32,230 nucleotides of DNA from a virus. Below the pieces are notes generated by a model. That model was not told where the DNA came from, did not search any database, and saw only the letters and a list, made by a program, of their open reading frames with translations. The stretch spans positions 1 to 32,230 of IMG/VR virus record IMGVR_UViG_3300018933_000011; one strand, given 5' to 3'. Both the position numbers and the translations under genes were made by a program. Below, one piece after another: positions 357-31,324 of this stretch. Numbering within the stretch: the stretch's first letter is position 1; every line of letters starts with the position of its first letter.

Positions 357-385
357 GGGGTGTGTCCTTGTCCTCCGTGCCTCGC

Positions 386-400
386 CCGGCCCTCAACCAG
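386..400 (-). promoter_or_regulatory. Start-associated 15-bp element, copy 1 (chaperone gene)
   Basis: Coding-strand sequence CTGGTTGAGGGCCGG, 30 nt upstream of the GTG of the chaperone-like gene. It is identical to copies 2 and 3 and near-identical to copies 4 and 5. It is one of few non-coding stretches in this tightly packed operon. A role in transcription or translation of the following gene is inference. Confidence 0.65.
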
Positions 401-433
401 TCGGCGTGCGGATCAGGGTAGCCGCCCGGCCGG

Positions 434-601
434 TCAGCCCCCTCCCACCAGCACGAACGTCCGACCGTCGCGCTCCTGGTGCACCTCCGGGGGCTGCACC
501 GCGTGGTGGTCGATGTCCCCGTACGCGAACGACTCCACCACGAGGTCGCCCCGCTCAGCCCGGATCGCTTCCAACCTGGCCACAAGCTCGCTGATCAGCA
601 T
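434..601 (-). CDS. Small hypothetical phage protein (55 aa)
   Basis: ATG start 11 nt after the upstream connector gene. The product starts MLISELVARLEAIRAERGDL and ends in TFVLVGGG before TGA. The amphipathic N-terminal helix followed by a short beta-rich part (VVESFAYGDIDHHAV) is typical of small phage proteins of unknown role. GC-rich third positions and tight spacing support a real gene. No Cys, no membrane segment. It sits between the HK97 gp10-like connector and the chaperone gene, so a small virion or assembly role is possible but not shown. Confidence 0.55.
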   Translation of the reverse strand: MLISELVARLEAIRAERGDLVVESFAYGDIDHHAVQPPEVHQERDGRTFVLVGGG

Positions 602-612
602 GGGCGGGCACC

Positions 613-990
613 TTACCGGCCCAGGCGCAGTGCCCTGCCCAGGAAGTTGTCCGGCCTAGTCCCGGGATGTCTCACCAGCTTGGTGAACACGATGTCCCCG
701 CCCACCTCGAACCGCAGGTACTGGCGGCGGCGGGGACGGATCAGGTGCGGGCGGGTGCCGTCCAGGACCAGGCGGGCCTTGGGGTGGGTGCAGATGACCG
801 CGCCCTCCAGGCCGCGCGGCCCCTCCCGAATGTCCGTCTCGATGTACCGGCCCATGCTCCCCGGGGCCTCCGCCTCCGCGATCCGCGCCACCCGGTCCAG
901 CCGCCGCTGGAGACGGCGCCGAGCCACCCCGTTACGGGCCCGCAACAGCCGCGCGATGGCGCCCTGGTCGACACGTACCTCAACGCTCAT
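613..990 (-). CDS. HK97 gp10-like head-tail connector / tail completion protein
   Basis: The ATG overlaps the upstream stop as ATGA, giving 125 residues beginning MSVEVRVDQGAIARLLRARN. The arrangement is an N-terminal helix, an Arg-rich helical stretch (RRRLQRRLDRVARIAEAEAP) and a beta-rich second half (GRYIETDIREGP, AVICTHPKARLVLDGTRPHL, RFEVGGDIVF). This is characteristic of HK97 gp10-like minor proteins that join head and tail. Length and gene position (connectors, then gp10-like, then chaperone) agree with the family. In-frame starts further upstream are ignored because they would run deep into the previous gene. Confidence 0.65.
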   Translation of the reverse strand: MSVEVRVDQGAIARLLRARNGVARRRLQRRLDRVARIAEAEAPGSMGRYIETDIREGPRGLEGAVICTHPKARLVLDGTRPHLIRPRRRQYLRFEVGGDIVFTKLVRHPGTRPDNFLGRALRLGR

Positions 991-1592
991 GCCGGGCCCT
1001 CCTGCGGGCATCCGCAGCCTGGCAGCGCGACGGTGACGCGCTGCTCCAACCCCACGCAGCCGCCCTCCGGGCCGACCGTCTTGGACTCCCCGACGAACAC
1101 CACCCGGCGTCGCTGCTCGCTCGTGGCCGGCAGGCAGCACTCCACGGCGTTGCGCACGACCACCATGTCCGTGTGCAGGATGCGGGCTGCCTCCCCCAGC
1201 GCCTCACACGACGGCGGACAGCCGCCCTCGTCCATGGTTGGGGCGCAGCGCAGCAGCGTGACCACCAGCTCCACCGCCATGGCCGGCGGCGCCGCGCACG
1301 TCAGCCGGCCCCGCGCCTGCGTCGGGGGCAGGGTGCGGTCCGCGGTGGGGAACTCGGAGCTGGAGAACAGCCGGGCGACGTTGACCGTCAGCTGACCGCC
1401 CGCGCCGCCGCCCGGCGCCTGGTTGCACGGGTCGTCACAGGAGTCCCAGGCGGCCAGGCCGGGCACCAGGCAGCTCCGGCAGGGGCAACCGGGCTGGCCC
1501 TCCACCTGCTCGGCGGCGTCCTGCAACGCGGCGCACACGCACCCCAGCACGGCCTCCGCCGCCTCCTGCACGGCGGTCAGTCTCAGGGCCAT
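987..1592 (-). CDS. Cys-rich head-tail connector or tail terminator-like protein (201 aa)
   Basis: ATG start overlaps the end of the upstream adaptor gene by 10 nt; the stop overlaps the next start as ATGA. The product begins MALRLTAVQEAAEAVLGCV. It has an N-terminal helix, a central beta part (QLTVNVARLFSS, RGRLTCAAPPAMAVELVVTL) and a final strand-rich part (RRRVVFVGESKTVGP). It carries 16 Cys in 201 residues, including pairs such as CPCRSC and the CC of AVECCLP, far above normal for a cytoplasmic phage protein. Context places it in the neck: adaptor, this gene, gp10-like, chaperone. A tail terminator or stopper role is the best guess; no diagnostic motif was found. Confidence 0.5.
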   Translation of the reverse strand: MALRLTAVQEAAEAVLGCVCAALQDAAEQVEGQPGCPCRSCLVPGLAAWDSCDDPCNQAPGGGAGGQLTVNVARLFSSSEFPTADRTLPPTQARGRLTCAAPPAMAVELVVTLLRCAPTMDEGGCPPSCEALGEAARILHTDMVVVRNAVECCLPATSEQRRRVVFVGESKTVGPEGGCVGLEQRVTVALPGCGCPQEGPA

Positions 1593-2392
1593 GTGGTCTT
1601 CCTCGGCCGGTTGTAGTCCACGCTGTACACGCGGGACGGCCGGGTGAGCCGGCCGGGGTTGACGGTGGTCAGGAACAGGTCCACCAGGGGCAGGCCGGTC
1701 AGGCCCGAGCTGTAGAAGATGGTGGGGTCCGGCATCTCCATCTCCACGCCCTGGCGCTGGAGCCTGGTGACGCGGGGGTTGGCCTTGCAGCCGCAGGAGC
1801 CGGTGCCGCCGCACCCCCGCAGCAGGTGGCAGGTCAGCTCCGAGACGGCCGCGATGGCGGAGTCATCCGGCTCGATGCCCCACCGGTACGTCACGGTGAA
1901 GGTGCCCGGGGCGCCCTCCGGCTCGGCGAGTTCTTGGCAGCGCGGCCAGCACTCCCCGCCCAGGCGCACGAGCAGGCTCGGCGCGTCCACCCGGTACTCC
2001 AGCCCGGGCAGCAGATCCTGGCCGTCCACGTTGACCCGCAGCACGTCATGCACCGGGCCCTGGAGCTTCACCTCGCACAGCTCCGAGCAGGAGCAGCCGC
2101 GGGGACGGCACCCACACACGGACGCGTTGCGCCACGCCCCATCCGTGCCGATGTACGGCACCCACGGGCCCGTGCCCACCCCGGCCTGGAACGAGATGGG
2201 GGCGGACTCCAGGCACGCCTGGCGGCACGGCCGTACGGTCACCTCGCACACACCGATGCGCCGGCCGGACAGCCGCCACAGGATCTGGGTGGCCACCCGC
2301 CGCCAGCGCTCCAGCGTCTCAGCCTCCACGCCTTCCGTGTCGCAGCACAGCTCTACCGGCCATGGCTCACACGCCGTCGTCTGGAGCGGCAC
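1583..2392 (-). CDS. Head-to-tail adaptor (gp6-like connector), Cys-rich
   Basis: ATG start with AGGAGGGAGGTGG upstream; 269 residues beginning MPLQTTACEPWPVELCCDTE. An early helical segment (LERWRRVATQILWRLSGRRIG) is followed by VCEVTVRPCRQAC and a long beta-rich body. This pattern is known in actinobacteriophage head-to-tail adaptors, which assemble as a ring below the portal. The C-terminal part (FLTTVNPGRLTRPSRVYS) is basic. It has 17 Cys, with CxC-type clusters in the middle (VCGCRPRGCSCSELC). The gene lies after the major tail protein and before the other neck genes; in most siphoviruses the adaptor precedes the major tail gene. Confidence 0.65.
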   Translation of the reverse strand: MPLQTTACEPWPVELCCDTEGVEAETLERWRRVATQILWRLSGRRIGVCEVTVRPCRQACLESAPISFQAGVGTGPWVPYIGTDGAWRNASVCGCRPRGCSCSELCEVKLQGPVHDVLRVNVDGQDLLPGLEYRVDAPSLLVRLGGECWPRCQELAEPEGAPGTFTVTYRWGIEPDDSAIAAVSELTCHLLRGCGGTGSCGCKANPRVTRLQRQGVEMEMPDPTIFYSSGLTGLPLVDLFLTTVNPGRLTRPSRVYSVDYNRPRKTTWP

Positions 2393-2414
2393 GGCTCCAC
2401 CTCCCTCCTACGGC

Positions 2415-2445
2415 GCAGCCGCGCGACGAGGTGCCGCGCGGCTGC
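2415..2445 (-). terminator. Perfect 11-bp GC hairpin between major tail and adaptor genes
   Basis: Arms GCAGCCGCGCG (2415-2425) and CGCGCGGCTGC (2435-2445) pair perfectly around a 9-nt loop. It follows the major tail protein stop in the leftward direction. There is no U-tract, as is common for hairpin terminators in actinobacteria. It may reduce readthrough from the highly expressed tail gene or stabilise the transcript end. Confidence 0.55.
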
Positions 2446-2458
2446 AAGGGTGGCCGGG

Positions 2459-3136
2459 TCAGGCCGGAACCGGCACGTAGTCACAGGACGGCGCCGGCGG
2501 CGGCGTGGTCGTGATGAACGTCCGCCGGTGGCAGTTGGGCTCCAGCGGGGTGAGCAGCGGCCCGGGCGTGCCGGACGCGTCGACCGGCATGACGTCGTAC
2601 GGGCCCACCCCCCAGTTGCCGCCGGTCTTGGTGGACCCGGTGATCTGGAGGGTGACCGCCTCGCTGCCGATCTCCAGGTCGCCCAGCAGGCCGTTGCTCA
2701 CCCAGGGCAGAAGGAAGTAGATCCACTGCCCGGTGGCGCCCTCGGCGCACGCCTCGCCCAATACCTCCGCCCACAGCTCCAGAGCGAAACCGGTGTCGCA
2801 CTTGACCGAGCAGCTATCGAAACCGATCGGCTGGCCGTCGTAGCCCAGCACGACGGGGTTACCCGTCAGGATCTCGATCAGCTCCGGGGAGACCGAGAAC
2901 ACGTTGAGCTCCAGGTCGAAGCCGCGGAAGGTGGGGCAGCCGCGCTTGAACCCGCAGACGCGGCCGTTGGCGGCCTTGTACTCGATGTCCTCGCCGTCCT
3001 CGCTGTTGTTGTTCATCGCCAGCGAGGCGAAGCAGTCGAAGACGTACCCATTGTCCGGGCCGGGGATCGGGTTGCCACACTGGTCAACCCTGGTGACGCG
3101 CATGACGTCCGCGTTCGCGATGAGCGGGCAAGACAT
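2459..3136 (-). CDS. Major tail protein (tail tube)
   Basis: 225 residues beginning MSCPLIANADVMRVTRVDQC. The start was chosen because GGAGG lies 6 nt upstream and the start-associated element lies 25 nt upstream; an in-frame ATG further out lies in that leader. Segments such as VTRVDQCGNPIPGPDNGYV, CPTFRGFDLELNVFSVSPEL, LTGNPVVLGYDGQPIG, CDTGFALELWAEV and GNWGVGPYDVMPVD match the pattern of actinobacteriophage major tail proteins, which stack as rings to form the tail tube. Nearly all beta and Cys-containing. The leader folds into a hairpin that holds the ribosome binding site. The gene sits upstream of the neck genes, a less common order. Confidence 0.75.
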   Translation of the reverse strand: MSCPLIANADVMRVTRVDQCGNPIPGPDNGYVFDCFASLAMNNNSEDGEDIEYKAANGRVCGFKRGCPTFRGFDLELNVFSVSPELIEILTGNPVVLGYDGQPIGFDSCSVKCDTGFALELWAEVLGEACAEGATGQWIYFLLPWVSNGLLGDLEIGSEAVTLQITGSTKTGGNWGVGPYDVMPVDASGTPGPLLTPLEPNCHRRTFITTTPPPAPSCDYVPVPA

Positions 3137-3165
3137 GCCGGTCCTCCTACGATCAGGAGTCCGGC
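3137..3165 (-). promoter_or_regulatory. RBS hairpin in the major tail protein leader
   Basis: On the coding strand GCCGG pairs with CCGGC and, inside, CTCCT pairs with AGGAG around the loop GATCGT. The AGGAG is the ribosome binding site and the hairpin ends directly at the ATG. One side of the outer stem is the end of the 15-bp start-associated element. The fold would sequester the ribosome binding site, which suggests translational control; this is inferred from pairing alone. Confidence 0.55.
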
Positions 3166-3175
3166 CCTCAACCAG
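3161..3175 (-). promoter_or_regulatory. Start-associated 15-bp element, copy 2 (major tail gene)
   Basis: Coding-strand CTGGTTGAGGGCCGG, 25 nt upstream of the major tail protein ATG and directly joined to the RBS hairpin. Confidence 0.7.
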
Positions 3176-3222
3176 CGACATGTACGTGTCCGGCCCGAAG
3201 CCAGCGACACCAGCAGTTTAGC

Positions 3223-3250
3223 CGCGGCCTGGTCCAACAACCCGGCCGCG
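3223..3250 (-). terminator. Short GC hairpin after the 100-aa gene
   Basis: CGCGGCC (3223-3229) and GGCCGCG (3244-3250) pair around a 14-nt loop, directly after the stop of the 100-aa gene and ahead of the major tail leader. A 7-bp stem without a U-tract is only a weak terminator candidate. Confidence 0.35.
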
Positions 3251-3260
3251 AGCAAGGGAC

Positions 3261-3563
3261 TTACTCCACGTCCGGCGACTCCTCGGCCGGCGTGTAGCCG
3301 GACAGACGCCGCGCCGTCGACTCGGGCACGTTCAGGGCGAGCAGCGCCTCGTAGTCCCCTCGTGCCTCCTGATTGAGCTGCTCGTCCAGCTCGGCACGGC
3401 GCCTTGCGTTCGTCTGCTGGATCGCGGCGAGGGCCTGGTCGTACTGCTCGCCCGTGATCTGCTCGGCCCCCTCGGGGAGTGTGACCTCCGCCGGGTCCGT
3501 CGTCGTCTCCAGGCGGGCGACAGAGCCGTTGGGATACTGCACGTACACGGTGGTCATGGTCAT
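3261..3563 (-). CDS. Hypothetical 100-aa protein with acidic helical C-terminal half
   Basis: ATG start (MTMTTVYVQYPNGSVARLET) 10 nt after the upstream fibre gene; a second ATG two codons later is equally possible. Residues 1-40 look beta-rich (TVYVQYPNGSVARLETT). Residues 40-80 form a long charged helix (YDQALAAIQQTNARRRAEL) that could be a coiled coil, and the tail is acidic. No Cys, no membrane segment. It follows the fibre-like cluster and precedes the major tail gene, so it could be a small fibre-associated or chaperone protein. No family recognised. Confidence 0.6.
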   Translation of the reverse strand: MTMTTVYVQYPNGSVARLETTTDPAEVTLPEGAEQITGEQYDQALAAIQQTNARRRAELDEQLNQEARGDYEALLALNVPESTARRLSGYTPAEESPDVE

Positions 3564-3573
3564 GGGCTCTGCC

Positions 3574-4599
3574 TCACAGGTTGAAGATGAACGCGCGATG
3601 CCAGGTCTGGATCCTGGAGTACGTGCTGTTGCTGTTGTAGTTGCCGCCCATGCCGATGACGAAAGGCTCGGCCAGCGTCCCGCCCGGCGGGATCACGCGG
3701 TTGTACACCTTGGTCGTCTGCACGTGGAAGTCGTTGACGACCTGCGTGCTCTTGTTCTCGACGCGCAGCATGTCGTCCCCTCCGATGGCGTACAGCGCCG
3801 CTGAGTTGGGCGGCAGGGTGAAGTCGATGTCCAGCTCGGCCTCGAAGATCACGAAGGCTGGCCGGCATGGGTCGGGGTTGGTGACCGTGAACGGCCGGTC
3901 CTCGACCGGGGTGTCTCCCGGGCCTCCGGGCACGAGCATTTCCGGGTAGGCCTGGTCAAGACCCTGCTGCACGTAGGTCGCGGTAGGGCGCGGTTCGCTC
4001 CTGAGCGCGCCCGTACTGTCGCAGTAGACCTGTCCGGCGTAGTCGTCGACGTCGCACGCGGCGTACGGCCAGGCGGCCACCGCCGCCGCCAGGGGCGCGC
4101 CGGCGCTTCCGTCGCCCGTGAGACCGCACGCGGTCTCGGGCGGGACGGCGCTCACCTCATACGGGTCAGCCGCGCTGCCGGTGCCGGTGACGGTGACGCC
4201 GTCCCCGGCCTGGACGACGGTCGCCGCCGCGGGCTCGGCGCTGATGGTGCCGCTGGCCGGGTCGTAGTCGATGCCCGTCCCGGCCGTCAGGCATGACCGC
4301 ACGTCCGCGCATTCCACGTACAGGCCGTCCGGCCCGGCCTCCAGCAGGTTGGTGCCGCCGCCGGGCGGGGTGGCGTCCAGGCGTACGGCGGCGGACACCT
4401 GGTAAGGGGTGGCCGCGGTGCCATTGCCGGTGACGGTGGTGTCCACGGTCGGGGTGTCCAGCGCCTGGAGGGCGGTGGGCGTCGCCGCACCGGCGCTGAT
4501 GACGTAGGGGCTGGTGGACGAGCCGTTGCCGTCGACGGTGACGCCGGGCCCGGCGGTGATGGTGCAGGTGCAGCGTCGGGCGCCGCAGCAGGTGGCCAT
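3574..4599 (-). CDS. Fibre-like virion protein with GVTVxGxGSxxxPYxVSA repeats (341 aa)
   Basis: ATG start (MATCCGARRCTCTITAGPGV) with GGAG 7 nt upstream and two copies of the start-associated element in the leader. At least three repeats of about 20 residues are visible: GVTVDGNGSSTSPYVISA, TTVTGNGTAATPYQVSA and GVTVTGTGSAADPYEVSA. Such repeats are common in fibre and beta-solenoid segments of phage adhesins. The C-terminal 110 residues form a separate beta domain (PFTVTNPDPCRPAFVIFEA through NSNSTYSRIQTWHRAFIFNL). It closes the fibre-like gene cluster that starts with the two giant Cys-rich proteins. A virion surface fibre or adhesin is inferred; whether it sits on head or tail is unknown. 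Confidence 0.6.
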   Translation of the reverse strand: MATCCGARRCTCTITAGPGVTVDGNGSSTSPYVISAGAATPTALQALDTPTVDTTVTGNGTAATPYQVSAAVRLDATPPGGGTNLLEAGPDGLYVECADVRSCLTAGTGIDYDPASGTISAEPAAATVVQAGDGVTVTGTGSAADPYEVSAVPPETACGLTGDGSAGAPLAAAVAAWPYAACDVDDYAGQVYCDSTGALRSEPRPTATYVQQGLDQAYPEMLVPGGPGDTPVEDRPFTVTNPDPCRPAFVIFEAELDIDFTLPPNSAALYAIGGDDMLRVENKSTQVVNDFHVQTTKVYNRVIPPGGTLAEPFVIGMGGNYNSNSTYSRIQTWHRAFIFNL

Positions 4600-4627
4600 G
4601 AGGAGGCTCCTCGTGTGAGGGAGTCGT

Positions 4628-4642
4628 CCGGCCCTCAACCAG
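4628..4642 (-). promoter_or_regulatory. Start-associated 15-bp element, copy 3 (341-aa fibre gene)
   Basis: Coding-strand CTGGTTGAGGGCCGG, 29 nt upstream of the ATG at 4599. The following leader can pair CTCC with GGAG of the ribosome binding site. Confidence 0.7.
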
Positions 4643-4662
4643 CAACGTCTGAATCGGTGCGC

Positions 4663-4677
4663 CCGGCCCTTAACCAG
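4663..4677 (-). promoter_or_regulatory. Start-associated 15-bp element, copy 4 (tandem)
   Basis: Coding-strand CTGGTTAAGGGCCGG, one base different from copies 1-3, 35 bp upstream of copy 3. It is the only place with two copies in tandem. The flanking bases also match copy 1: both have CGA before CTGG and GC after GCCGG. Confidence 0.65.
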
Positions 4678-4693
4678 TCGGCGCGTGAAGAAG

Positions 4694-4999
4694 TCAGGAT
4701 TGCGTGGCGTGCGCGTGCACCGTGACTCCGGAGGCGGGCGTCCCGGTCGCCAGGACACCGATCCCCAGGAGGGTGACGCCCGCCGCGGTGAGCACGGACA
4801 CTTGCGTCTGGGCGGCGGTGTTCGCCGAGATCCGCGCGGAGCGGAAGCCAGCGCCGGCCTCCAGGGCGACGGTGACGACTGGCGGCGCGGTGAACGTCCC
4901 CGGAGGCCAGTGGAACGTCGCCACACCGGTGCCGTCCGTGACCGCGGTTGCCCGGAACTCACGAGGACCAGGCGGCGTGTGGCTTCCTGTGGTGCTCAC
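4694..4999 (-). CDS. Small beta-rich protein, fibre knob-like (101 aa)
   Basis: GTG start 7 nt after the upstream stop; an ATG 20 codons earlier would overlap the previous gene by 53 nt, so GTG is preferred, although its ribosome binding site is weak. The sequence (VTDGTGVATFHWPPGTFTAP, VVTVALEAGAGF, TQVSVLTAAGVTLLG, SGVTVHAHATQS) resembles the terminal domains of phage fibre and minor tail proteins in which a TFxxPPVVTV-type strand precedes several beta strands. No Cys. It is likely a virion surface or fibre-tip component, inferred from composition and its place in the fibre cluster. Confidence 0.5.
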   Translation of the reverse strand: MSTTGSHTPPGPREFRATAVTDGTGVATFHWPPGTFTAPPVVTVALEAGAGFRSARISANTAAQTQVSVLTAAGVTLLGIGVLATGTPASGVTVHAHATQS

Positions 5000-5006
5000 C
5001 GGACGG

Positions 5007-5486
5007 CTACGCCTGCGTGGTCCACAGCACCAGCCACGAAGCGGCCGGGGCGGTCCCATCGATCGCGAGGGTGCCGGTGAGCGCCGAGTCGACCGCGTCG
5101 CCGTCCACGGACCACGTCAGGGTCGAGCCGGGCGGCACCAGGAACGTGCCCTCGGCAGTGGTGACGCCGACGCTCCCGGTGAGGACCATCAGCGTCACGG
5201 ACTGGGTGCCGGCGTTCGCGGCCAGGGACCAGTCCGTATCCCGAGTGCCGTGCGGGGTGACCGGCCTTGGCGTCGGGGTGGCGTCCCGGCACACGCTGGC
5301 CGTGCCGGTCACCGTGTAGGCGGTGGTGCCGTCCAGTTGGGTGTCCACAGGCACGACCGTGCCGGTGCCGTCGACGGTGTACCGGCGCAGGAACGCGGTG
5401 ACAGTCCCCGCACCGTCGTCGTCGCACAGGATCTCGAACTCGCGGTCAAGGCTGGAGGTCGAGACGGTGCCGCTGGTTCCTGCCAT
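5007..5486 (-). CDS. Short member of the Cys-rich LCD/LDG repeat family (159 aa)
   Basis: ATG start (MAGTSGTVSTSS) with AAGGAGG 8 nt upstream. Residues 17-66 are one copy of the repeat found many times in the two giant proteins upstream: FEILCDDDGAG, AFLRRYTVDG, DTQLDGTTAYTVTGTASVC. Residues 85-159 match the C-terminal beta domain of the 1317-aa protein: TQSVTLMVLTGSVGVTTAEG and STLTWSVDGDAVDSALTG align with QSVSVTVLAGVLNVTMSTG and MTLTWSVADTDDSSLA. It is therefore a minimal paralog: one repeat plus the C-terminal module. Probably a surface or fibre component; function not known. Confidence 0.65.
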   Translation of the reverse strand: MAGTSGTVSTSSLDREFEILCDDDGAGTVTAFLRRYTVDGTGTVVPVDTQLDGTTAYTVTGTASVCRDATPTPRPVTPHGTRDTDWSLAANAGTQSVTLMVLTGSVGVTTAEGTFLVPPGSTLTWSVDGDAVDSALTGTLAIDGTAPAASWLVLWTTQA

Positions 5487-5505
5487 GAGGTGCCTCCTTG
5501 GGTCG

Positions 5506-5976
5506 TTACGCGACGCGGCTGTAGCGCAGGGTGGACCGGCCGCTGCCGTCGCTGACGACGATGGCCGTCCCGGTCGCGCCCTGTGAGTTGAAGCGGGCAG
5601 CCTCGACGCGGATCGTGCGCGGGCCGGGGACGGTGTACTCGACCTGGATCGGCGCGCTGTTGTTCGTGCCCTGCGACAGGGTCGCCCCTGACGGTGAGCC
5701 GATGTTGATCTGATGGACCATCGCCTCACTGCCCGGGACGACGGCGCCGGCGGTCACGTCGTACAGCCTGGCGACGATGTACGTGTTCGCAGGCGAGACG
5801 GCCGCCATCGCCGCGCGGACCGTCGCGTCGAGCTGATAAGTCCCGGCGGCCGGGAGCGTCACGGACAGGCCAGTGGCCACCCACGTCCCGGACGCGGACG
5901 GCTGGAGATCCACGGCCGCCGGCAGGACGGCAGAGCCGTGCCCGATGAGCCGCAGGGCCGCGCTGGTGCCCGTCAC
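5506..5976 (-). CDS. Beta-sandwich virion protein, paralog of the 225-aa protein (156 aa)
   Basis: GTG start overlapping the upstream stop (GTGA). It starts VTGTSAALRLIGHGSAVLPA and contains GTWVATGLSVTLPAAGTYQL, NTYIVARLYDVTAGAVVPGS, GPRTIRVEAARFNSQG and a final STLRYSRVA. The pattern 'GTWV-T-L-VTLP-AG-Y-L...VRA...-I-ARLYD...-RTIRVEA' matches the 225-aa protein two genes upstream, so the two are paralogs. This all-beta layout is like the receptor-facing C1q/TNF-like or jelly-roll domains of phage fibres. No Cys, in contrast to its paralog. A surface role is inferred. Confidence 0.6.
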   Translation of the reverse strand: MTGTSAALRLIGHGSAVLPAAVDLQPSASGTWVATGLSVTLPAAGTYQLDATVRAAMAAVSPANTYIVARLYDVTAGAVVPGSEAMVHQINIGSPSGATLSQGTNNSAPIQVEYTVPGPRTIRVEAARFNSQGATGTAIVVSDGSGRSTLRYSRVA

Positions 5977-6143
5977 GCCTCCTCCCCGCCTTCGACCGCC
6001 GCGCGGTAGGCGGCCTCGTCGGTCTCCTCGAACCCGGCCGCCAGGAGCGGCCCGGCATCCGCCAGGCCGTGCACGGCCTGGACGCATCCACCGTTGGTGA
6101 AGTACCGCGTCGCCGCGTCCTGCTCGGGGGCCTCCTCGGCCAT
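5973..6143 (-). CDS. Small acidic hypothetical protein (56 aa)
   Basis: ATG start 11 nt after the 225-aa gene; the stop overlaps the next start as GTGA, a sign of translational coupling. The product (MAEEAPEQDAATRYFTNGGC ... ETDEAAYRAAVEGGEEA) is acidic and probably helical, with a single Cys. It lies between the two paralogous beta-sandwich genes, which suggests a partner or chaperone for one of them. No family recognised. Confidence 0.55.
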   Translation of the reverse strand: MAEEAPEQDAATRYFTNGGCVQAVHGLADAGPLLAAGFEETDEAAYRAAVEGGEEA

Positions 6144-6154
6144 GTCCCACCGTC

Positions 6155-6832
6155 CTAGTCTGTGATCTTGTGCCAGGTGACGTAGTTCCGGCTGGCGGGC
6201 ATGGTGCAGCTCTGGAAGGTCGTGTTCGCGCACGTCGTGCTGTTCTGGAAGAGACCTCGGAGCCGTAGCGTGCGCGAGCCCTGGGCCGCCGTGACGACGC
6301 TGATATGAGTGATCGGGGACGTGGCCGACTGGCACGTCTGCAGGGCGGTGCCGTCGTTCGCTTTGGAAAACTGATGCTGGGTGATCGTGCGCGGCCCGGC
6401 CTCCACGGCCCCGGCCGCGTCGAAGATCGCTCCCTCCACCCAGGCGTTGGAGCAGTAGTTGACCTGGGCGCATACCTGCGCCCGCACGTCCCAGGACAGG
6501 TAGTAGCGGCCGGGCTCGGGCAGCGTCACGACCAGGGCCGTGTCCACCCAGGCCCCGGGCGCCGGCAACAGGTTGGCGGCCGTCGCGAGAACGGCCTCCC
6601 CCGAGACCGGGGACAGGCGCGCCCCAATCTGCCAGGCGTCCGGGCAGCCGCCGGGATGGACGAGGTCAACGTCCACGGACCGGGTCGCGCCGACCGGGGC
6701 GGGCGCGCTGGACGGCAGCGCCGCCAGGCTCGTCCTGGGGACGAGGAGCCCGGCCGGTGTGGTCGTCAAGGCGTTGCACGCCTGTGGATCAACGGCTGGC
6801 GCGCCCTTGAGGCTGGCATCGGTACCCGTCAT
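6155..6832 (-). CDS. Beta-rich fibre-like virion protein (225 aa)
   Basis: The ATG overlaps the stop of the 1317-aa gene (ATGA). The first 60 residues are low in structure (LTTTPAGLLVPRTSLAALPS), followed by a beta domain: GAWVDTALVVTLPEPGRYYL, VEGAIFDAAGAVEAGPRTIT, HISVVTAAQGSRTLRLRGLF and a C-terminal NYVTWHKITD. The domain is paralogous to the 156-aa protein downstream but has added Cys residues (AQVCAQVNYCSN, LQTCQSA, TTCANTTFQSC). It may be translated together with the giant upstream protein. The general layout suggests a trimeric fibre or adhesin domain; this is inference. Confidence 0.6.
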   Translation of the reverse strand: MTGTDASLKGAPAVDPQACNALTTTPAGLLVPRTSLAALPSSAPAPVGATRSVDVDLVHPGGCPDAWQIGARLSPVSGEAVLATAANLLPAPGAWVDTALVVTLPEPGRYYLSWDVRAQVCAQVNYCSNAWVEGAIFDAAGAVEAGPRTITQHQFSKANDGTALQTCQSATSPITHISVVTAAQGSRTLRLRGLFQNSTTCANTTFQSCTMPASRNYVTWHKITD

Positions 6833-10782: not shown

Positions 10783-13307
10783 AATTGCACTCCTGTCGTG
10801 AAGGTGATGGTGACGGTGCCGGGGCCCGCGGTGATGGTCAGCGGCCCGGTCAGCAAGGCGTCGGTGTCGCGCGAGACGCCCCAGGAGGCGGACTCACTGG
10901 GGTGGAGGGTGCTCGTGCCGTCCACGGTGGTGATCGTGGCGGTGCCGTCGTGGGCGACGGCGGTCACGGACTGAAGCGTCGGGTAGGACGCTGCGCTCCA
11001 GGTCTGGCCGGCCGCGAGTTCAACGCGGCGCGCCTGGACGCCGAACGCCGGGTCGGCACCCTCCTCCTGGCCCTCGTCGCAGTCGACCGGTGAGATGGGC
11101 GCGTAGGGCTCGGTGAGGTCACTGGTGTAGGTGCCGAGGCTGGTCAGGGCGCCGGCGCAGTCCACGCCCAGCAGCTCGACGTAGCCGATCTCACCCATGC
11201 CGTCGCCGTCGGCGTCGTCGCAGCGGCACGCCTGGAGCACTGCCTGCACAGGGCAGGGTGGCGGCTCGATACCGGTGTCGGCGGGCGTGCACTGGCCGAC
11301 CTCCCCGACCGGGGTGTACGGGGCCCCGTCGAGGGTGCTGTCCGTGACGGCGGTGACAACGCCGTCGCAGTCCAGGGTGACGGACCGCAGGAACTGGATC
11401 TCGCATCCGATCTGGTCGTAGACGACGCTGGCAGTGAATTGGTCCACGATCCATCCGCCGACGTGGGCGGCGGTCTGCCAGGTCTCCAGCACGCCGGCGA
11501 GATGGACGTCCCCGGCGGCGACGTCGGCGGCCGAGACCTGCCCGGACACGGTGAGGGTGCCGGTGTAGCCAACCGGCGCGTTGGTCGGGGTAGTCACGAC
11601 AGCGACACGGGTACCGCCGGACCACAGGCTCCAAATGCCATTGCCACCGAGCGCCGACGAGGGGCCGGTGCGCTGGACGCGGATGCTGGCCGTGATGGTG
11701 GCGGTGCCGGTGTCGCAACCGGGCCGCTCGGCCTGGAGGGTTGCCGCGACCGAGCGGAGGTGCTGGTTGACGTGGTCGGGGCCGGGGCCGGTGTCCGCTG
11801 GGATGCTGATGGCGCCTCCGGCCCACAGAGCCGCTGCGCCGCCGGGTAGCGGTTCCGCTCCAAGGCCGGCCCCCTGGTAAGGGGTGGGGTCGGTGTCGCT
11901 GACCGTGGGGGTGGGCTCGCCGCCGCTCGGCAGGTCGCACACGAGAAGCGTGCTCGTGGTGCGGCACGGCTGCGCCTCGGGCACGCACGGGGCGACGGTT
12001 CCAACCGGGGTGTAGGGGGCGCCGTCCAGGGTCAGGTTGACCACCACGGTGACCGCGCCCCCGGCGTCCTGGACCAGCTTGCGGATGAATGGCCCGTTGT
12101 CGTCGCACAGCACCAGCTCCCCGTGGAACACCTGGGGGATGACCGGGACGGGGCCGGGCACCTCAGTGGGGCACTGGCCCACGGTGCCGGTGACCGTGTA
12201 CGGGGCGCCGGCCAGGGTGTAGTCACTGTGGCCGACGACCTGTGTGTTCTCATCACGCCGGTAGTCGCGCAGGAACTGCACCGCGGCGCCGTCCGCCTGG
12301 ACATCGCACAGGATGACGAGGTCCGGGTCGGGCTGTGCCTGCCCGGTGGGGCAGTGGCGCAGCTCCCCTTGCAGCGTGTACGGGCTGCCGTCTGCCGGGT
12401 TGACCAGGGAGACGCCGGCGAGACTGCCGTCCGGGTTGTAGCTGTACTCGACCAGGGCCAGGCCGAGGACTTCCCCCGTGTCCGGGTCGGTGTCGCACAG
12501 GATGCCCGCGAGCTCGAAGGCGCTCCCGTCACCGCAGGCCGCGGCCCCAGCCGGAGGCGCGCCGGCGCTGTAGGCGCCGGTGAGGAGGTTGACCCATCCG
12601 GCCTGGGCCGTGACGCCGTCACAGTCCCGGGTGAGAAGGACCGCGATCGGTGTGCCGTCCGGGAGGCACAGGCCCACCGTGGCGGTAGGGGTGGTGGGTG
12701 AGGTGCAGTCAGGTGCGGCCGGGCAGACGCCGGGCGTGCCGATGACGACGTGCGGGGTCTGTCCGTCGAGGGCGACGTCCTCGTACGACGCGGTCCCGGC
12801 GAGGAACGTGTACCGCCTCAGAAACGGGCCGTTGGCGTCGCACAGCATCACCGTCTCGGACTCGGGGCAGCCGTAGGTGCACTCCACCGGCGAGATGGGG
12901 GTGTACGGCGTTGCGGGGTCGTCCTGGTAGGTGAGCAGCAGCGTGGCCGAACCGTCCGCGGCCAGGCACCACAGCTCGGAATAGGTGGTGTCCGGCTGGC
13001 CGTCGCCGGTGGTGTCGTCGCAGCGCTGCCGGCAGACGGTCTCCACGCAGCCGGGGGTGTCGCACGGTCCGGCGTCCGCGGGCGGCGGGCCGGGGGTGTA
13101 GGCGCCGGTTGCGGGGTCGATCCACCCGACCTGGACCGGGTCGGCGGCCGGGGCGCCGCAGTCCCCGCACGGGGAGCGCACCACGATGAGCACCGTGGTG
13201 CCGTCCGCCCGGCACAGCGGCATGGACGTGATGGACGGCGCGCACGAGCAGGCCCCCGGCGTACCGGTACCGCCGTCCGGGCCGCAGGGCAGGGGCTCTA
13301 CGGGCAT
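10779..13307 (-). CDS. Giant Cys-rich repeat virion protein (842 aa)
   Basis: ATG start 3 nt after the zinc-finger gene; begins MPVEPLPCGPDGGTGTPGAC. About ten repeat units fill residues 1-450 and 640-760, for example VMLCDANGPFLRRYTF, VILCDVQADGAAVQFLRDYR, LVLCDDNGPFIRKLVQ and LDGAPYTPVGTVAPC. A non-repeat beta domain (GIWSLWSGGTRVAVVTTPT, VHLAGVLETWQTAAHVGGWI) sits at about 500-640, and a C-terminal beta domain (RVELAAGQTWSAASYPTLQS) at 760-842. Unit 6 (residues 325-385) is nearly the same as a unit of the 1317-aa protein (ILCDVQxDGxxxQFLRDYRR), so the two genes arose by duplication and share modules. Closing Cys residues at the unit ends could form disulfides in the mature virion. A surface fibre role is inferred. 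Confidence 0.7.
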   Translation of the reverse strand: MPVEPLPCGPDGGTGTPGACSCAPSITSMPLCRADGTTVLIVVRSPCGDCGAPAADPVQVGWIDPATGAYTPGPPPADAGPCDTPGCVETVCRQRCDDTTGDGQPDTTYSELWCLAADGSATLLLTYQDDPATPYTPISPVECTYGCPESETVMLCDANGPFLRRYTFLAGTASYEDVALDGQTPHVVIGTPGVCPAAPDCTSPTTPTATVGLCLPDGTPIAVLLTRDCDGVTAQAGWVNLLTGAYSAGAPPAGAAACGDGSAFELAGILCDTDPDTGEVLGLALVEYSYNPDGSLAGVSLVNPADGSPYTLQGELRHCPTGQAQPDPDLVILCDVQADGAAVQFLRDYRRDENTQVVGHSDYTLAGAPYTVTGTVGQCPTEVPGPVPVIPQVFHGELVLCDDNGPFIRKLVQDAGGAVTVVVNLTLDGAPYTPVGTVAPCVPEAQPCRTTSTLLVCDLPSGGEPTPTVSDTDPTPYQGAGLGAEPLPGGAAALWAGGAISIPADTGPGPDHVNQHLRSVAATLQAERPGCDTGTATITASIRVQRTGPSSALGGNGIWSLWSGGTRVAVVTTPTNAPVGYTGTLTVSGQVSAADVAAGDVHLAGVLETWQTAAHVGGWIVDQFTASVVYDQIGCEIQFLRSVTLDCDGVVTAVTDSTLDGAPYTPVGEVGQCTPADTGIEPPPCPVQAVLQACRCDDADGDGMGEIGYVELLGVDCAGALTSLGTYTSDLTEPYAPISPVDCDEGQEEGADPAFGVQARRVELAAGQTWSAASYPTLQSVTAVAHDGTATITTVDGTSTLHPSESASWGVSRDTDALLTGPLTITAGPGTVTITFTTGVQL

Positions 13308-13310
13308 CCG

Positions 13311-13922
13311 TCAGTCCTCCCTGTGGACCTGGCGGCGGTGGCTGTCCCGGCCGCGCTCGGTGGTGAACTCCCGCGGGCACTGGTCGCACGCGAAGGGGCC
13401 GCCGTCGTCGGCAGCTTGCTCTCCCTCGTCCTCGTCGCTGGGCGCGTCCTCCAGCGGCGCGAAGTCTGGGACTGAGTCGCTTGGGTCGCTGCTGTCCCCT
13501 CCAGCGGCAGCGGCGTTGGAGGCGGCCAGGTCGGCGGCCACCACGGCGGCCGTCATGGCCCGCTCGACCGTCTCGGGCGGGGCGGCGGCCACCATCGCCG
13601 CGGCGTCCGCGTACGGATCACCTACGGGCGGGGTGAGCGCGGCCGGGTCAGCGACGCCCAGCAGCTCCTGGCCCACCTCCTCCTGGTGGCCGGGCTCGGG
13701 CACGCCGTTGGCGGCGTCCTCCGTCGGGGACACGTAGCGGTGGCCGTCCACCAGGGCGCCGATCAGCACGTCCTCCGGGGCGTGGACGAACAGGCCGGCC
13801 GGGACGCCGAACTCCCCCAGGCCGATGGTGCCGACCTTTGGCGTCTGGGCGGTCGCCCAACGGGCGAACGCCACGAGGCGGGTCCGCTGGGGCTTGACTC
13901 GGATCATGTCGTTGCTGCTCAT
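13311..13922 (-). CDS. Virion protein with a C-terminal C2H2 zinc finger (203 aa)
   Basis: The ATG overlaps the upstream stop (ATGA); a GTG/ATG two codons earlier is less likely. Residues 1-70 hold a compact domain (KPQRTRLVAFARWATAQTPK, VGTIGLGEFGVPAGLFVHAP, EDVLIGALVDGHRYVSPTED). Residues 75-170 are Ala- and Asp-rich and probably disordered. The last 27 residues contain CDQC, twelve residues, H, four residues, H (C-x2-C-x12-H-x4-H) with Phe inside (REFTTERG), the exact spacing of a classical C2H2 zinc finger. The gene sits between a capsid-associated protein and the giant repeat proteins. It may be a capsid decoration or linker protein; what the zinc finger binds is unknown. Confidence 0.65.
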   Translation of the reverse strand: MSSNDMIRVKPQRTRLVAFARWATAQTPKVGTIGLGEFGVPAGLFVHAPEDVLIGALVDGHRYVSPTEDAANGVPEPGHQEEVGQELLGVADPAALTPPVGDPYADAAAMVAAAPPETVERAMTAAVVAADLAASNAAAAGGDSSDPSDSVPDFAPLEDAPSDEDEGEQAADDGGPFACDQCPREFTTERGRDSHRRQVHRED

Positions 13923-14761
13923 GGGCACGCCATCACCTGCACCGCGCAGATCGTGCAGGTGGTGCCGACGACGACCGTCCGCTCCGCCAGCACCCTGCGG
14001 TCGTTGTTCCGGATGTTCACAGAGGCGGACGCGCGGGAGCGGTCCGGGATCACGTCCACCGGCCCGCGGCGGATGACCAGCGGCCCGGTGATGTACAGCC
14101 AGGCCGCGCCCGGATCGGCGGGGATGCCGCCGGGGCCCTGGTTGAGGAAGGAGTAGCCGGCGCCGATGACGGCGCAGTTCCCCGCCCAGGTCTCCAGCGC
14201 CCCCGTGGCCGGATCCTCGTGGACGAGGTTGCAGCAGCCGAGCAGCGCGGCCACGCCGGCGGGGATGTGCAGGACGCCCCGGCCGCCGTAGTTCTCGGCG
14301 AGGCAGCCCTCCAGCGCGGCCACGCCCTGGGCGATGTTCAGCGGCCCCTCCGGCGGGGTGATGTCCACCGCGTCCGCCGTGAGCGTGGTGCGCATGAACC
14401 CGGCCTCGATGGCGTGCTGCTCACCCAGGGCCAGGGATGCCAGGGCCTGCGCCCGCGCCTCCTCGTACGAGAACGAGGGGGCGGAGCACTCCGCGCCGGC
14501 GTAGATGGTGATGGGCGTGGCGTGCTCGGTGCTCGGGCGGCAGAACTCCTTTTCGGTGGGGTCCCCTGGCTGCGGGTCCTCGCACGGGTCCGGCCAGTCC
14601 CGGGCGGGGCAGCAGCCGATGGACAGCCACTCCACGCCGTTGAGCTGGTGGATTTCGTCCTCGGTGACGTCGATGACGTTCGTGCATGAGGCGCCGAGGA
14701 TGCCGCGCGGGAGTGGCGTGCCAGGGATGCCAGGGACGACTTGGCGCAGTCCTGCGGGCAT
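13919..14761 (-). CDS. Capsid-associated virion structural protein (280 aa)
   Basis: ATG with GGAGG 6 nt upstream (a GTG codon directly before it is too close to the RBS). Begins MPAGLRQVVPGIPGTPLPRG. Recognisable segments are FCRPSTEHATPITIYAGAEC, EEARAQALASLALGEQHAIE, NIAQGVAALEGCLAENYGG, RGVLHIPAGVAALLGC and AWLYITGPLVIRRGPVDVIP. This layout occurs in actinobacteriophage structural proteins encoded just after the capsid gene and resembles a shortened coat-protein fold (long helix, then beta strands). It ends Cys-rich (TTCTICAVQVMACP). A minor capsid, vertex or second coat role is possible; I am fairly sure only that it is a virion protein. Confidence 0.6.
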   Translation of the reverse strand: MPAGLRQVVPGIPGTPLPRGILGASCTNVIDVTEDEIHQLNGVEWLSIGCCPARDWPDPCEDPQPGDPTEKEFCRPSTEHATPITIYAGAECSAPSFSYEEARAQALASLALGEQHAIEAGFMRTTLTADAVDITPPEGPLNIAQGVAALEGCLAENYGGRGVLHIPAGVAALLGCCNLVHEDPATGALETWAGNCAVIGAGYSFLNQGPGGIPADPGAAWLYITGPLVIRRGPVDVIPDRSRASASVNIRNNDRRVLAERTVVVGTTCTICAVQVMACP

Positions 14762-14785
14762 CACGCACCTCCAGTCATGGGTGGG

Positions 14786-14829
14786 GCGCGTGCCGGGCCG
14801 GGACGGGGAGGCACCGGCCCGGCACGCGC
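14786..14829 (-). terminator. Perfect 15-bp GC hairpin after the major capsid gene
   Basis: Arms GCGCGTGCCGGGCCG (14786-14800) and CGGCCCGGCACGCGC (14815-14829), loop 14 nt, no mismatch. It directly follows the capsid stop in the leftward direction. It is the strongest hairpin in the window and fits a terminator or attenuator that sets a step between the capsid gene and the downstream virion genes. There is no U-tract. Confidence 0.7.
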
Positions 14830-14850
14830 GTCATCGGGTGACCGGGGCGG

Positions 14851-16518
14851 TCAGGCGGCCGGGCAGGCCACGAGGGTCTGGGCGCCGGTCTCACCGGACG
14901 CGCAGACGGGCACGGTCACCAGGCGCGTGTCCACGCTCCTGTCGACGAGGGCCACGCACTCCTCGGCGAAGAGGGCTGTGTAGTCGTTGCGGCTGAACTT
15001 GGTCGAATCATGGATCACGCCCAGGTTGACGTCCTCGCCGCGTCCGATGACCAGGCTGCCCGCCGGGTAGATCAGGAACTGGAGCTGGGCCGGCCAGACG
15101 GTGGCCGCGGTCGGGCCGCCGATGTCGGTGGGGACGGCCGGGGTGAGACCGCGGGCCCACTGGATGCGCACGCCCAGCGGGGAGAACAGGTCCTGCACGT
15201 CCTGGGTGCTCACCTCGGAGGGGCAGCAGCCGTTACGGCGCGCCAGGTCCGCGAGGAACATATTCCTCGACCACCACGGGAACACCACCTCGAGCGCGGT
15301 GCTGTCACACAGGCTGTGGCGCTCGATCATGTCGGCGGCCTGGAGGCTGACGGCTCCGAACACGGCGGAGAGGGCGGCCATGGAGGCCGGGATGGTCACC
15401 GGGGTGGCCGTCGTGAGCGCCTTCTGGAAGAGCACCTGCCGCAGCCGGATCTCGTGGGCCACCATCGCGTTGCGCAGGTACCACGCGATCAACTCGGGGA
15501 AATGCCTCTGGGTCAGAATTCCTGCCTCCAAGCACACCCCGACGGCGTCGCACCTGACCTCGACCGGGTCCGGACACGGAATCTTGAAGCAAGGCTTGGT
15601 GTTGCCGGCGATGTCGTCCGCCTCGGTGTGCACCCAGGTGAGGCTGGACACGTCCAGGGACAGCGGCTTGTAGTAGCGCAGGCCGCCGCGGGCGAGCTGG
15701 ATTTCCGGGGCGTCCCAGAGCATGTCCGGGCAGCTGGTGTCCGTCAGCTCATACAGCGTTTCGGACGGGGCGCACCAGCCGCCGGACGCGACCAGGTCGC
15801 CCTGGGGGAGGCGGGACTGGGTGGAGGCGGTCATGGCCACGGTGGTGCCCTCGGGCGCGGAGCTGGAGTCCGTGACGATGGTGTCCGCCGGGTAGGGGTG
15901 GTGGTAGGAGATGACCTGGCCGACTCCGCCACCGGCGGTCTTGAGGGCGGTGGCGCGGGAGTTGATGCCCTTGACCACGTCGTCGAAGTTCAGGTCCGAG
16001 CCGGGCGTATAGCCGGGCACGTCCACCGCGGCGGTGATGGTGGTGCCCGGGGGCGGGGCCTCCGGCAGGACGCGCGGCTGGGCGCGGCGGACGGCGCGCA
16101 GGTTGAGCGCGGGGCGGGTGGGCACGACGACACCGCCGGCGGATGCCGTGGCGGTGGTCTCGGCCGGGGCGGCCGGCGCCTCCGGGGCCGGGGGCTGCTC
16201 GGTGGCGGCGGCGGTCGGCTCGGCCGGCTCCTCGGTGGTGGCCGTGGTCTCCGCGGCGGCGGCCGGGTCCTCGCCGCGCACCTGGGCGGCCAGGGCCTCG
16301 ATCTCGGCGGCGGCCTGGGTGGCGGCCTCCACCCGGGTCTGCTGCTCGGTACGGATGTCCTCGACGCAGGCGGCCAGGGCGCGCATGCGGGTCATGGCGT
16401 CGCCGTCGATGACGTCCTGTCCGGAGAGGGCGGCGAACGCGGCACGGGCCCCGTCCAGGGCCTCGGCCAGGGCCTCGTCATCGAGAGCGGTGACGTCCTC
16501 GGGGATTTCGAAATCCAT
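14851..16518 (-). CDS. Major capsid protein with N-terminal scaffold-like domain (555 aa)
   Basis: ATG start (MDFEIPEDVTALDDEALAEA) with GGAG 8 nt upstream and the start-associated element 32 nt upstream. Residues 1-85 form acidic, coiled-coil-like helices; 85-130 are Ala/Thr/Pro/Glu-rich and likely a linker. From about 150 the HK97-type coat domain follows: VPGYTPGSDLNFDDVVKGIN, FPELIAWYLRNAMVAHEIRL, HSLCDSTALEVVFPWWSRNM, LQFLIYPAGSLVIGRGEDVN and SRNDYTALFAEECVALVDRS. HK97-fold coat proteins often carry an N-terminal delta/scaffold region that the prohead protease removes, and a protease domain is encoded just upstream. No separate scaffold gene is obvious, which fits the fused arrangement. 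The cleavage site near 130-160 is inferred. Confidence 0.85.
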   Translation of the reverse strand: MDFEIPEDVTALDDEALAEALDGARAAFAALSGQDVIDGDAMTRMRALAACVEDIRTEQQTRVEAATQAAAEIEALAAQVRGEDPAAAAETTATTEEPAEPTAAATEQPPAPEAPAAPAETTATASAGGVVVPTRPALNLRAVRRAQPRVLPEAPPPGTTITAAVDVPGYTPGSDLNFDDVVKGINSRATALKTAGGGVGQVISYHHPYPADTIVTDSSSAPEGTTVAMTASTQSRLPQGDLVASGGWCAPSETLYELTDTSCPDMLWDAPEIQLARGGLRYYKPLSLDVSSLTWVHTEADDIAGNTKPCFKIPCPDPVEVRCDAVGVCLEAGILTQRHFPELIAWYLRNAMVAHEIRLRQVLFQKALTTATPVTIPASMAALSAVFGAVSLQAADMIERHSLCDSTALEVVFPWWSRNMFLADLARRNGCCPSEVSTQDVQDLFSPLGVRIQWARGLTPAVPTDIGGPTAATVWPAQLQFLIYPAGSLVIGRGEDVNLGVIHDSTKFSRNDYTALFAEECVALVDRSVDTRLVTVPVCASGETGAQTLVACPAA

Positions 16519-16522
16519 GATC

Positions 16523-16551
16523 GGATCTCCAGCGGTACGCAGTGGAGATCC
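16523..16551 (-). promoter_or_regulatory. RBS hairpin in the capsid gene leader
   Basis: GGATCTCCA (coding strand) pairs with TGGAGATCC over 9 bp with an 11-nt loop. The GGAG in the second arm is the ribosome binding site of the capsid gene. The stem would hide the site, so initiation probably depends on melting or on an upstream signal. It starts exactly where the 15-bp element ends. Confidence 0.6.
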
Positions 16552-16564
16552 GGCCCTAAACCAG
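16550..16564 (-). promoter_or_regulatory. Start-associated 15-bp element, copy 5 (capsid gene)
   Basis: Coding-strand CTGGTTTAGGGCCGG, one base different from copies 1-3, 32 nt upstream of the capsid ATG. Confidence 0.7.
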
Positions 16565-16642
16565 CGATCAAACGGAATAGTAGCTTCCGCTCGACGCTGG
16601 TGTCTGTGAGCAGGCACTGAGCGCCCGTCAGGGGCCAGGCGC

Positions 16643-25346: not shown

Positions 25347-25418
25347 CGGGTATCTCCGCAGGAAGAGGCGGCTGGGCGGGGCGCTGGGGCGCCCTGAGCG
25401 GAAGGGGGATCTTCCGGG

Positions 25419-25438
25419 CGGCGGAGCATGATAGGTCA
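25419..25438 (-). promoter_or_regulatory. Repeated promoter-like element, copy 2 (ParB operon)
   Basis: Coding strand TGACCTATCATGCTCCGCCG, 73 nt upstream of the ParB-like ATG. Nineteen of 20 bases match the copy before the portal operon. TATCAT may be the -10 box. In both cases CCGGAAGA follows a few bases downstream. Confidence 0.6.
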
Positions 25439-25788: not shown

Positions 25789-25842
25789 TCTGACCCTGCT
25801 GGTTCTGGGCCGAGGGCACGCACTCCCACACGGAGGACTCTC

Positions 25843-31321: not shown

Positions 31322-31324
31322 CGT

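Follow-up and report, generated by a model that had tools for sequence, protein, structure and literature searches.

A 15-nt word that recurs upstream of virion genes in a 32,230-nt stretch of viral DNA (the window, meaning the whole stretch analysed) is the core of an irregular RNA hairpin, hairpin 1, that extends beyond it, a conclusion well supported by sequence comparison. We somewhat favor the view that hairpin 1 belongs to a family of leader RNAs that would gate late-gene translation, most like the Com/mom leader of phage Mu.

Copies of the element in the window and in related phages

The original prediction described five intergenic copies of CTGGTTDAGGGCCGG, four ending 25-32 nt upstream of a start codon and the fifth in tandem. 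All five are found, at 386-400, 3161-3175, 4628-4642, 4663-4677 and 16550-16564 on the (-) strand, which is the strand of the genes; three are exact, one is a TTTAGG and one a TTAAGG variant. They are indeed intergenic, and 24-31 nt separate the 15-mer from the start codon (chaperone GTG 356, tail-tube ATG 3136, fibre ATG 4599, capsid ATG 16518). The count was too low, since two more copies had been overlooked: CTGGCTTCGGGCCGG at 3190-3204 (-), the tandem partner of the tail-tube copy, and CTGGTTCTGGGCCGA at 25799-25813 (+), upstream of an opposite-strand gene. With up to three mismatches allowed, the 15-mer has 14 matches in the window against 3.5 ± 1.9 expected (0/100 shuffles reached 14), and the reversed pattern, used as a control, has none there. 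The 15-mer does recur, but the size of 15 bp was too narrow: the conserved unit is wider, with base pairing between its flanks, and most copies are preceded by a -10 box. The features are listed below.

3..356, (-): tail assembly chaperone gene, interrupted by the window end (phrog_12617)
380..407, (-): hairpin 1 of the tail-assembly-chaperone leader, exact core, 2-nt GA bulge (model R1, 15.2 bits)
415..420, (-): -10 box TACCCT, chaperone leader (from the sequence)
2459..3136, (-): major tail (tube) protein gene (phrog_792, E 7e-92)
3137..3165, (-): predicted hairpin 2 of the tail-tube leader, GCCGG-A-CTCCT/AGGAG-GA-CCGGC, ending at the ATG (sequence, folding)
3155..3181, (-): hairpin 1, second copy of the tail-tube tandem (model R1, 30.5 bits)
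3184..3210, (-): hairpin 1, first copy of the tail-tube tandem, overlooked earlier (model R1, 27.9 bits)
3215..3220, (-): -10 box TAAACT, tail-tube leader (sequence; logo)
3574..4599, (-): 341-aa fibre-like gene (open frame; the fibre name comes from the original prediction)
4622..4648, (-): hairpin 1, second copy of the fibre-gene tandem (model R1, 29.6 bits)
4657..4684, (-): hairpin 1, first copy of the fibre-gene tandem, 2-nt bulge (model R1, 21.2 bits)
14851..16518, (-): major capsid protein gene (phrog_777, E 3e-170)
16523..16551, (-): predicted hairpin 2 of the capsid leader, 9-bp stem GGATCTCCA/TGGAGATCC (folding)
16544..16570, (-): hairpin 1 of the major capsid protein leader, core 16550-16564 (model R1, 35.2 bits)
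16577..16582, (-): -10 box TACTAT, capsid leader (sequence; logo of 119 copies)
25793..25819, (+): hairpin 1 on the opposite strand, 29 nt 5' of the DUF6292 gene, overlooked earlier (model R1, 26.5 bits)
25843..26991, (+): DUF6292-domain gene, 382 aa, opposite strand (PF19809, E 2e-9)

The chaperone copy scores low with model R1 because of its 2-nt GA bulge; phrog_12617 is also the family of the annotated chaperone of phage TurkishDelight. The 341-aa fibre-like product has no Pfam match, and no clear -10 box was found upstream of the first copy of its tandem. The arrangement of hairpin and DUF6292 gene recurs in the records L150 and L159.

The element was present in 25/25 related records. The fuller relatives carry about 8-10 copies each, nearly all upstream of virion genes, with capsid, tail tube, chaperone, tape measure and fibres among the targets. 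The 93.6-kb genome of TurkishDelight has its copies at 12.9-30.6 kb, where they precede the capsid gene, the tail-tube gene (in tandem), the genes for chaperone and tape measure, and tail genes; none was found outside that interval at E<0.01. Gordonia phage Wizard has the hairpin upstream of capsid, tail tube, tape measure and endolysin. The hairpin is kept in Streptomyces and Gordonia phages, and probably also in those of Microbacterium. Model matches in the other Microbacterium phages BirdInFrench, Squash and Quhwah were not convincing, nor were those in the Mycobacterium phages Jeon, MitKao and Gadjet; the last of these, a cluster B phage, contains the core CTGGCTGCGGGCCGG, but its flanks form no good stem.

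A start codon follows the element at 24-36 nt in 127 of the 136 copies with an assignable start, which, together with the clustering in virion regions, upholds the view of an element associated with the starts of highly expressed virion genes and kept in relatives. The parallel drawn with cluster K mycobacteriophages holds only loosely. The start-associated sequence (SAS) of that cluster is a 13-bp word, GGGATAGGAGCCC, that contains the Shine-Dalgarno sequence, overlaps the ribosome-binding site a few nt from the start codon and occurs in non-structural genes, in that half of the genome (PMC3203893). The likeness to SAS/ESAS is that of a short word repeated before the starts of a subset of phage genes, whereas the element studied here lies 24-36 nt upstream, precedes virion genes and forms a covarying hairpin of another sequence. 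Identity with the cluster K element therefore failed on sequence, start distance and gene class.

Hairpin 1 and its predicted promoter

Hairpin 1 follows the pattern stem-[G]-C-[U]-GGY-N5-GCC-G-stem, in which a loop of 5 nt closes a stem interrupted by two bulges, one an invariant U and the other G (or GA/GT); the bulged U, the loop-closing GG/GCC and the loop G are invariant across phages. Among 47 distinct major-capsid leaders of relatives, 91.8% of cells are paired, as compared with 21-53% in slid-alignment controls, and five of the eight pairs show two-sided compensatory change. The covariation score of these leaders was 0.365 against 0.228 ± 0.015 for shuffles, and 0/500 shuffles reached it. 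The pair between the two bulges is C-G, replaced by A-U or U-A. In a many-gene set of 133 distinct copies, 93.1% of cells are paired and 75 are two-sided (24.6 when shuffled), figures biased by an alignment that leans towards the model. A less biased check used 17-mer core matches picked in genomes without regard to their flanks: flank pairing was 3.3/4 positions where a -10 box was present (n=38) and 1.95 where it was not (n=92). The covariation in the stem identifies the element as RNA and not a DNA word. Rfam 15 gave a single unrelated sub-threshold match in the window at E<=1 and matched no family in four relatives at the gathering score. No description of such an element was found in the open-access literature, including papers on these phages.

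A -10 box, TANNNT, lies 17-25 nt upstream in 119/147 copies (0.6% in the background). The exceptions comprise 12 copies with an extra inserted segment, which usually folds into a stable hairpin, 12 second tandem copies and 4 others. By the standard of a vegetative-sigma promoter, the -10 box is there but the -35 box is absent, no position near -35 exceeding 0.2 bits in the logo of the 119 copies. From the placement of the -10 box the transcript is predicted to begin at hairpin 1, with its start probably within a few bases of it. Raised translation, a late promoter and RNA processing had all been offered as functions; the covariation makes the element an RNA hairpin, and the promoter -10 box is adjacent to it but separate.

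A predicted second hairpin over the Shine-Dalgarno sequence

In the Streptomyces phages, folding indicates that the next 25-35 nt can form a second, stronger hairpin over the Shine-Dalgarno sequence (median energy -12.3 kcal/mol, against -6.8 for hairpin 1). Hairpin 2 reuses the 3' arm of hairpin 1, and the two are therefore mutually exclusive; in the capsid leader of the window it is predicted to sequester the Shine-Dalgarno sequence and to reuse G14-C18 of hairpin 1. Capsid leaders pair better with their own downstream half than with those of others (-14.5 vs -10.2 kcal/mol; 49/54, p 2e-8), a preference that holds over all leaders (p 5e-10), and the reuse of the hairpin 1 arm exceeds that in hybrid controls (p 5e-4). 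Sequence analysis supports this competition in silico, as it does the RNA nature of hairpin 1, its placement and the -10 box. In 117/127 leaders the Shine-Dalgarno zone is part of a helix of 4 bp or more, although DNA of 72% GC folds many ribosome sites anyway (mean pairing 0.60 in other TurkishDelight genes), and the pairing excess of the TurkishDelight leaders over other genes was not significant (p 0.1, 5 genes). A hairpin 2 covering the Shine-Dalgarno sequence was not clearly seen in chaperone leaders or in Gordonia leaders, so the switch is not universal.

The closest known system is the com/mom leader of Mu, in which a short hairpin stands beside a translation-inhibiting structure and a protein that binds the hairpin exposes the start signals (PMC6483171). 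The same arrangement, a hairpin upstream of and beside a start-hiding structure, is seen in silico in the Streptomyces phages, and not clearly in the chaperone and Gordonia leaders. The com/mom system involves a single target gene and a known protein, whereas here the hairpin sequence is different, there are up to ~10 virion-gene copies and the factor is a candidate. Separate late transcripts, headed by hairpin 1, would each start from a promoter that has a -10 box but lacks a -35 consensus. Only one full hairpin could form at once on each leader of the Streptomyces phages; free RNA is predicted to prefer hairpin 2, which would keep translation low, and recognition of the bulges and loop of hairpin 1 by a factor would make the ribosome site accessible. 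Such recognition would jointly raise the translation of capsid, tail tube, chaperone, tape measure and fibres. The transcription start, the direction of the switch, its trigger, and the existence and identity of the factor are what we infer. The broader model, an RNA-level late regulon in which one hairpin, present up to ~10 times per genome, and a common (possibly host) factor form a translational ON-switch coordinating all abundant virion proteins in phages that infect Streptomyces, Gordonia and probably Microbacterium, is tentative and in our estimate rather less probable than its failure.

Candidate factors and other explanations

No non-virion phage protein common to all 15 phages compared was found, hence there is no obvious phage factor, and no shared early-gene factor was found among the TurkishDelight proteins. 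A WhiB protein was rejected as the common late activator, being present in 19/25 records and missing from a 110-kb record.

It is possible, if unlikely, that the 5'-terminal hairpin mainly shields late mRNA from decay (5' entry of RNase J/RNase E), with no translational switch. Stabilizing hairpins stand at the mRNA 5' end in T7 late messages (gene 10 leader) and in ompA, and a 5'-end hairpin on mRNAs for abundant virion proteins resembles the T7 gene 10 leader. The predicted transcription start coincides with the hairpin, the targets are high-demand genes and, where the -10 box is farther off, another stable hairpin usually fills the gap, so that the 5' end is nearly always helical. Any stable stem would suffice for protection, yet the bulged U, GG/GCC and loop G are invariant, the stem of hairpin 1 is weak (median -6.8 kcal/mol) and the distance from hairpin to start codon varies little. 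We know of no conserved bulges or Shine-Dalgarno competition in T7-type stabilizing hairpins.

Feedback on translation, by repression or activation, through a virion-module protein bound to hairpin 1 seems less probable still. The candidate, a zinc-finger/basic-tailed protein encoded by the gene after the pentamer gene (13311-13928 in the window), occurs in all phages compared, with a C-terminal C2H2-like finger in nearly all phages of the main loop type and an Arg/Lys-rich tail in those of the CGNUAG loop type; Mu Com is likewise a zinc finger. The correlation of finger and loop is, however, confounded by ancestry and has one exception (L167), and the finger scores fall under Pfam cut-offs. 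Neither module occurs in the proteins encoded at this place in Gordonia phages, although these phages retain the hairpin, which weakens the zinc-finger protein as a universal binder.

We give slightly less weight again to an RNA that acts, without a phage protein, on RNA polymerase just after initiation (antitermination or escape), in the style of HK022 put. The element is likewise a structured RNA directly 3' of phage promoters, its helix is bulged, and no universal phage factor was found. Against this, it is repeated before up to ten single genes and not one long operon, its spacing to the start codon is tight, and a single hairpin is shorter than put. PMC9378689 describes putRNA as a nascent RNA element acting alone and places put on early-gene transcripts, while the copies studied here precede single late genes. 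Least probable is a site that acts as DNA, either extending a late promoter or binding an activator, on the 3' side of the -10 box: the near-fixed distance of the box in 119/147 copies and the lack of a -35 recall promoters that need help, but we rejected this reading on the compensatory changes in the stem and on the copies that are displaced by inserted hairpins or second in tandem, and the portal leader has a -10-like box without the hairpin.

Late gene control is poorly understood in most actinobacteriophages, and a widespread RNA family marking the most abundant virion genes offers an immediately testable handle; TurkishDelight, TP1604-type phages and Gordonia phage Wizard are among the isolates that carry it. 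Annotation benefits as well, because the hairpin points to promoters and to true start codons. If the translational switch is real, a whole late regulon would be coordinated by translation, and not by a sigma factor or antiterminator, and the leader could serve as a portable element for gene expression in Streptomyces.

The repeated element and its hairpin

The original prediction had listed five copies of a 15-bp element, and all five proved exact in coordinates, on the gene strand and intergenic. The 15-mer occurs in the window beyond chance, with 14 near-matches against 3.5 expected. Two copies had been overlooked: 3190-3204 (-), the tandem partner of the tail-tube copy, and 25799-25813 (+), which belongs to an oppositely oriented gene.

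25793-26991, plus strand: DUF6292 gene with its own hairpin copy 29 nt before the start, on the opposite strand within the late region

The DUF6292 homologues of two relatives (L150 and L159) have the same arrangement. Close to its terminase end, the window also encodes a GTP-cyclohydrolase-like domain (30339-32105, -), possibly of a DNA-modification pathway, and a ParB-like protein (24432-25499, -).

Viral contigs were scanned with the 15-mer, and 58 loci encoding related capsid proteins were retrieved. Almost all of these loci carry, ahead of the capsid gene, a -10 box followed by stem-[G]-C-[U]-GG-Y-NNNNN-G-CC-G-stem, an irregular stem with two bulges (hairpin 1). In 47 distinct capsid leaders, pair counting gave 91.8% pairing for this structure, two-sided changes were seen at 5/8 pairs, and covariation exceeded all 500 shuffles and lay far above slid controls. 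Most phages have C-G as the base pair that separates the two bulges; two phages have A-U there and one has U-A. RNAalifold independently recovered a nearly identical helix. The pairing also stands for a set of 133 distinct copies drawn from many genes, whose alignment had been fitted to the model. Genome hits picked up with a 17-base core alone served as a less biased check: their flanks pair if the -10 box is present and otherwise do not. The covariation and the flank pairing therefore identify an RNA hairpin of which the 15-mer is the visible portion, and the element is almost certainly leader RNA. No Rfam family matched hairpin 1.

Distribution and promoter spacing

The window, an IMG/VR fragment of 32 kb, has as its nearest sequenced relatives Streptomyces phage TurkishDelight (capsid identity 77%) and the TP1604/BayC/phiSAJS1 group. 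In phiSAJS1 the product labelled 'serine protease' (KT989433.2 14219-15955) is a major capsid protein by homology. A covariance model found hairpin 1 in 25/25 related records tested, with up to ten copies each. In TurkishDelight, annotated independently of this analysis, copies precede the genes for capsid, tail tube (two in tandem), chaperone, tape measure, gp30, gp32 and tailspike, and the remaining 60 kb holds none. The annotated tailspike start (30557) falls within the hairpin (NC_073473 30545-30590); an in-frame ATG at ~30590 agrees better with the usual leader spacing. In Gordonia phage Wizard, whose capsid protein is only ~31% identical, the hairpin stands ahead of the genes for capsid, tail tube, tape measure and endolysin; it is present in EdmundFerry and Geodirt as well. 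Hendrix and MO526, which are Microbacterium phages, show variants recognised by eye: the loop is larger in one, and a G-C pair is swapped in the other. Among bacterial genomes, the copies that are likely real (-10 box and stem) come from Streptomyces and a handful of its relatives, Nonomuraea and Planotetraspora among them. Ahead of the capsid gene of Gadjet (L396, Mycobacterium cluster B) lies a core CTGGCTGCGGGCCGG, but a matching outer stem is missing. The leaders of Gadjet, MitKao and Jeon share the word CCGGGGAGYGATC and are perhaps diverged or different leaders.

The regular distance to the start codon noted in the original prediction was borne out, at 24-36 nt downstream in 127/136 copies. 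Upstream, 119/147 copies have a TANNNT that starts 17-25 nt ahead of the bulged U, compared with 0.6% of random places; no conserved -35 sequence was found upstream of the copies. Since a -10 box usually lies 6-8 nt from the transcription start, transcription should begin at the first stem bases of hairpin 1. Copies without a box at the usual distance comprise 12 second tandem members, 12 with an inserted segment, usually a hairpin, between box and element, and 4 left over. The tandems and the variable -10 distance argue for a transcribed element. Upstream of the fibre-gene tandem of the window (4663-4720, -) no -10 box can be recognised, which sets it apart from most copies. A useful natural control is the portal leader of the same phages, ahead of the portal operon (L127, 7500-7730, and L128, L129 and L130): inspection by eye showed -10-like boxes there (GGTAAGCT and GTAGACT) but no hairpin.

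Hairpin 2 and the Shine-Dalgarno sequence

In a second stem, hairpin 2, the 3' arm of hairpin 1 is used again and the Shine-Dalgarno sequence is included:

Capsid leader of the window: GGATCTCCA...TGGAGATCC
Tail-tube leader of the window: GCCGG-A-CTCCT...AGGAG-GA-CCGGC

Pairing with the leader's own partner beat pairing with those of other phages in 49/54 distinct capsid leaders (p 2e-8) and across 127 leaders (p 5e-10); arm reuse was modestly above hybrid controls (p 5e-4). Free leaders are predicted to favour hairpin 2: hairpin 1 has a mean folding probability of 0.19, and the pairing of the Shine-Dalgarno bases is 0.78, compared with 0.60 when linkers are shuffled, although GC-rich leaders fold readily and other TurkishDelight genes average 0.60. 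In chaperone and Gordonia leaders hairpin 2 is not clearly shown.

Two incompatible conserved hairpins, one over the ribosome site, form the classic layout of a translational switch. Recognition of hairpin 1, the weaker of the two, by some factor is suggested because its bulges and loop are invariant, and these are the features that would be recognised. The Mu com/mom leader is similar in placing a hairpin for recognition next to a structure hiding start signals; there, Com binds the hairpin beside a translation-inhibition structure and the start is exposed (PMC6483171). Post-transcriptional control of the late genes through the leader is probable, and a leader RNA gating late-gene translation is, by a narrow preference, our best overall explanation; a specific translational ON-switch is a tentative reading. 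The chief alternatives are that the hairpin stabilises the mRNA 5' end, that it is a put-like RNA with polymerase as its target, or that it serves as a feedback operator.

Candidate binders and related systems

Only virion-module proteins are common to all 15 phages compared, among them one candidate binder:

Window 13311-13928, minus strand (TurkishDelight 15636-16400): product of the gene that follows the pentamer gene; its N-terminal domain is conserved and it ends in a C2H2-like zinc finger

Almost every Streptomyces phage whose hairpin has the main loop type has the finger; in the BayC-like group an Arg/Lys-rich tail replaces it and the loop is CGNUAG, a correspondence that is confounded by ancestry and has one exception, L167. 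As a universal hairpin binder this protein is attractive, yet it fails in Gordonia phages, where the protein at that position has neither finger nor tail. A factor from the host is no less likely.

The parallel drawn earlier with the start-associated sequences of cluster K held only as an analogy, since word, position and gene class all differ, which excludes that identity. No description of the hairpin was found in the open-access literature, which was the scope of the search. We class it as a new family within a known kind of RNA, the cis-acting mRNA leader, for which reuse across a late regulon is unusual.
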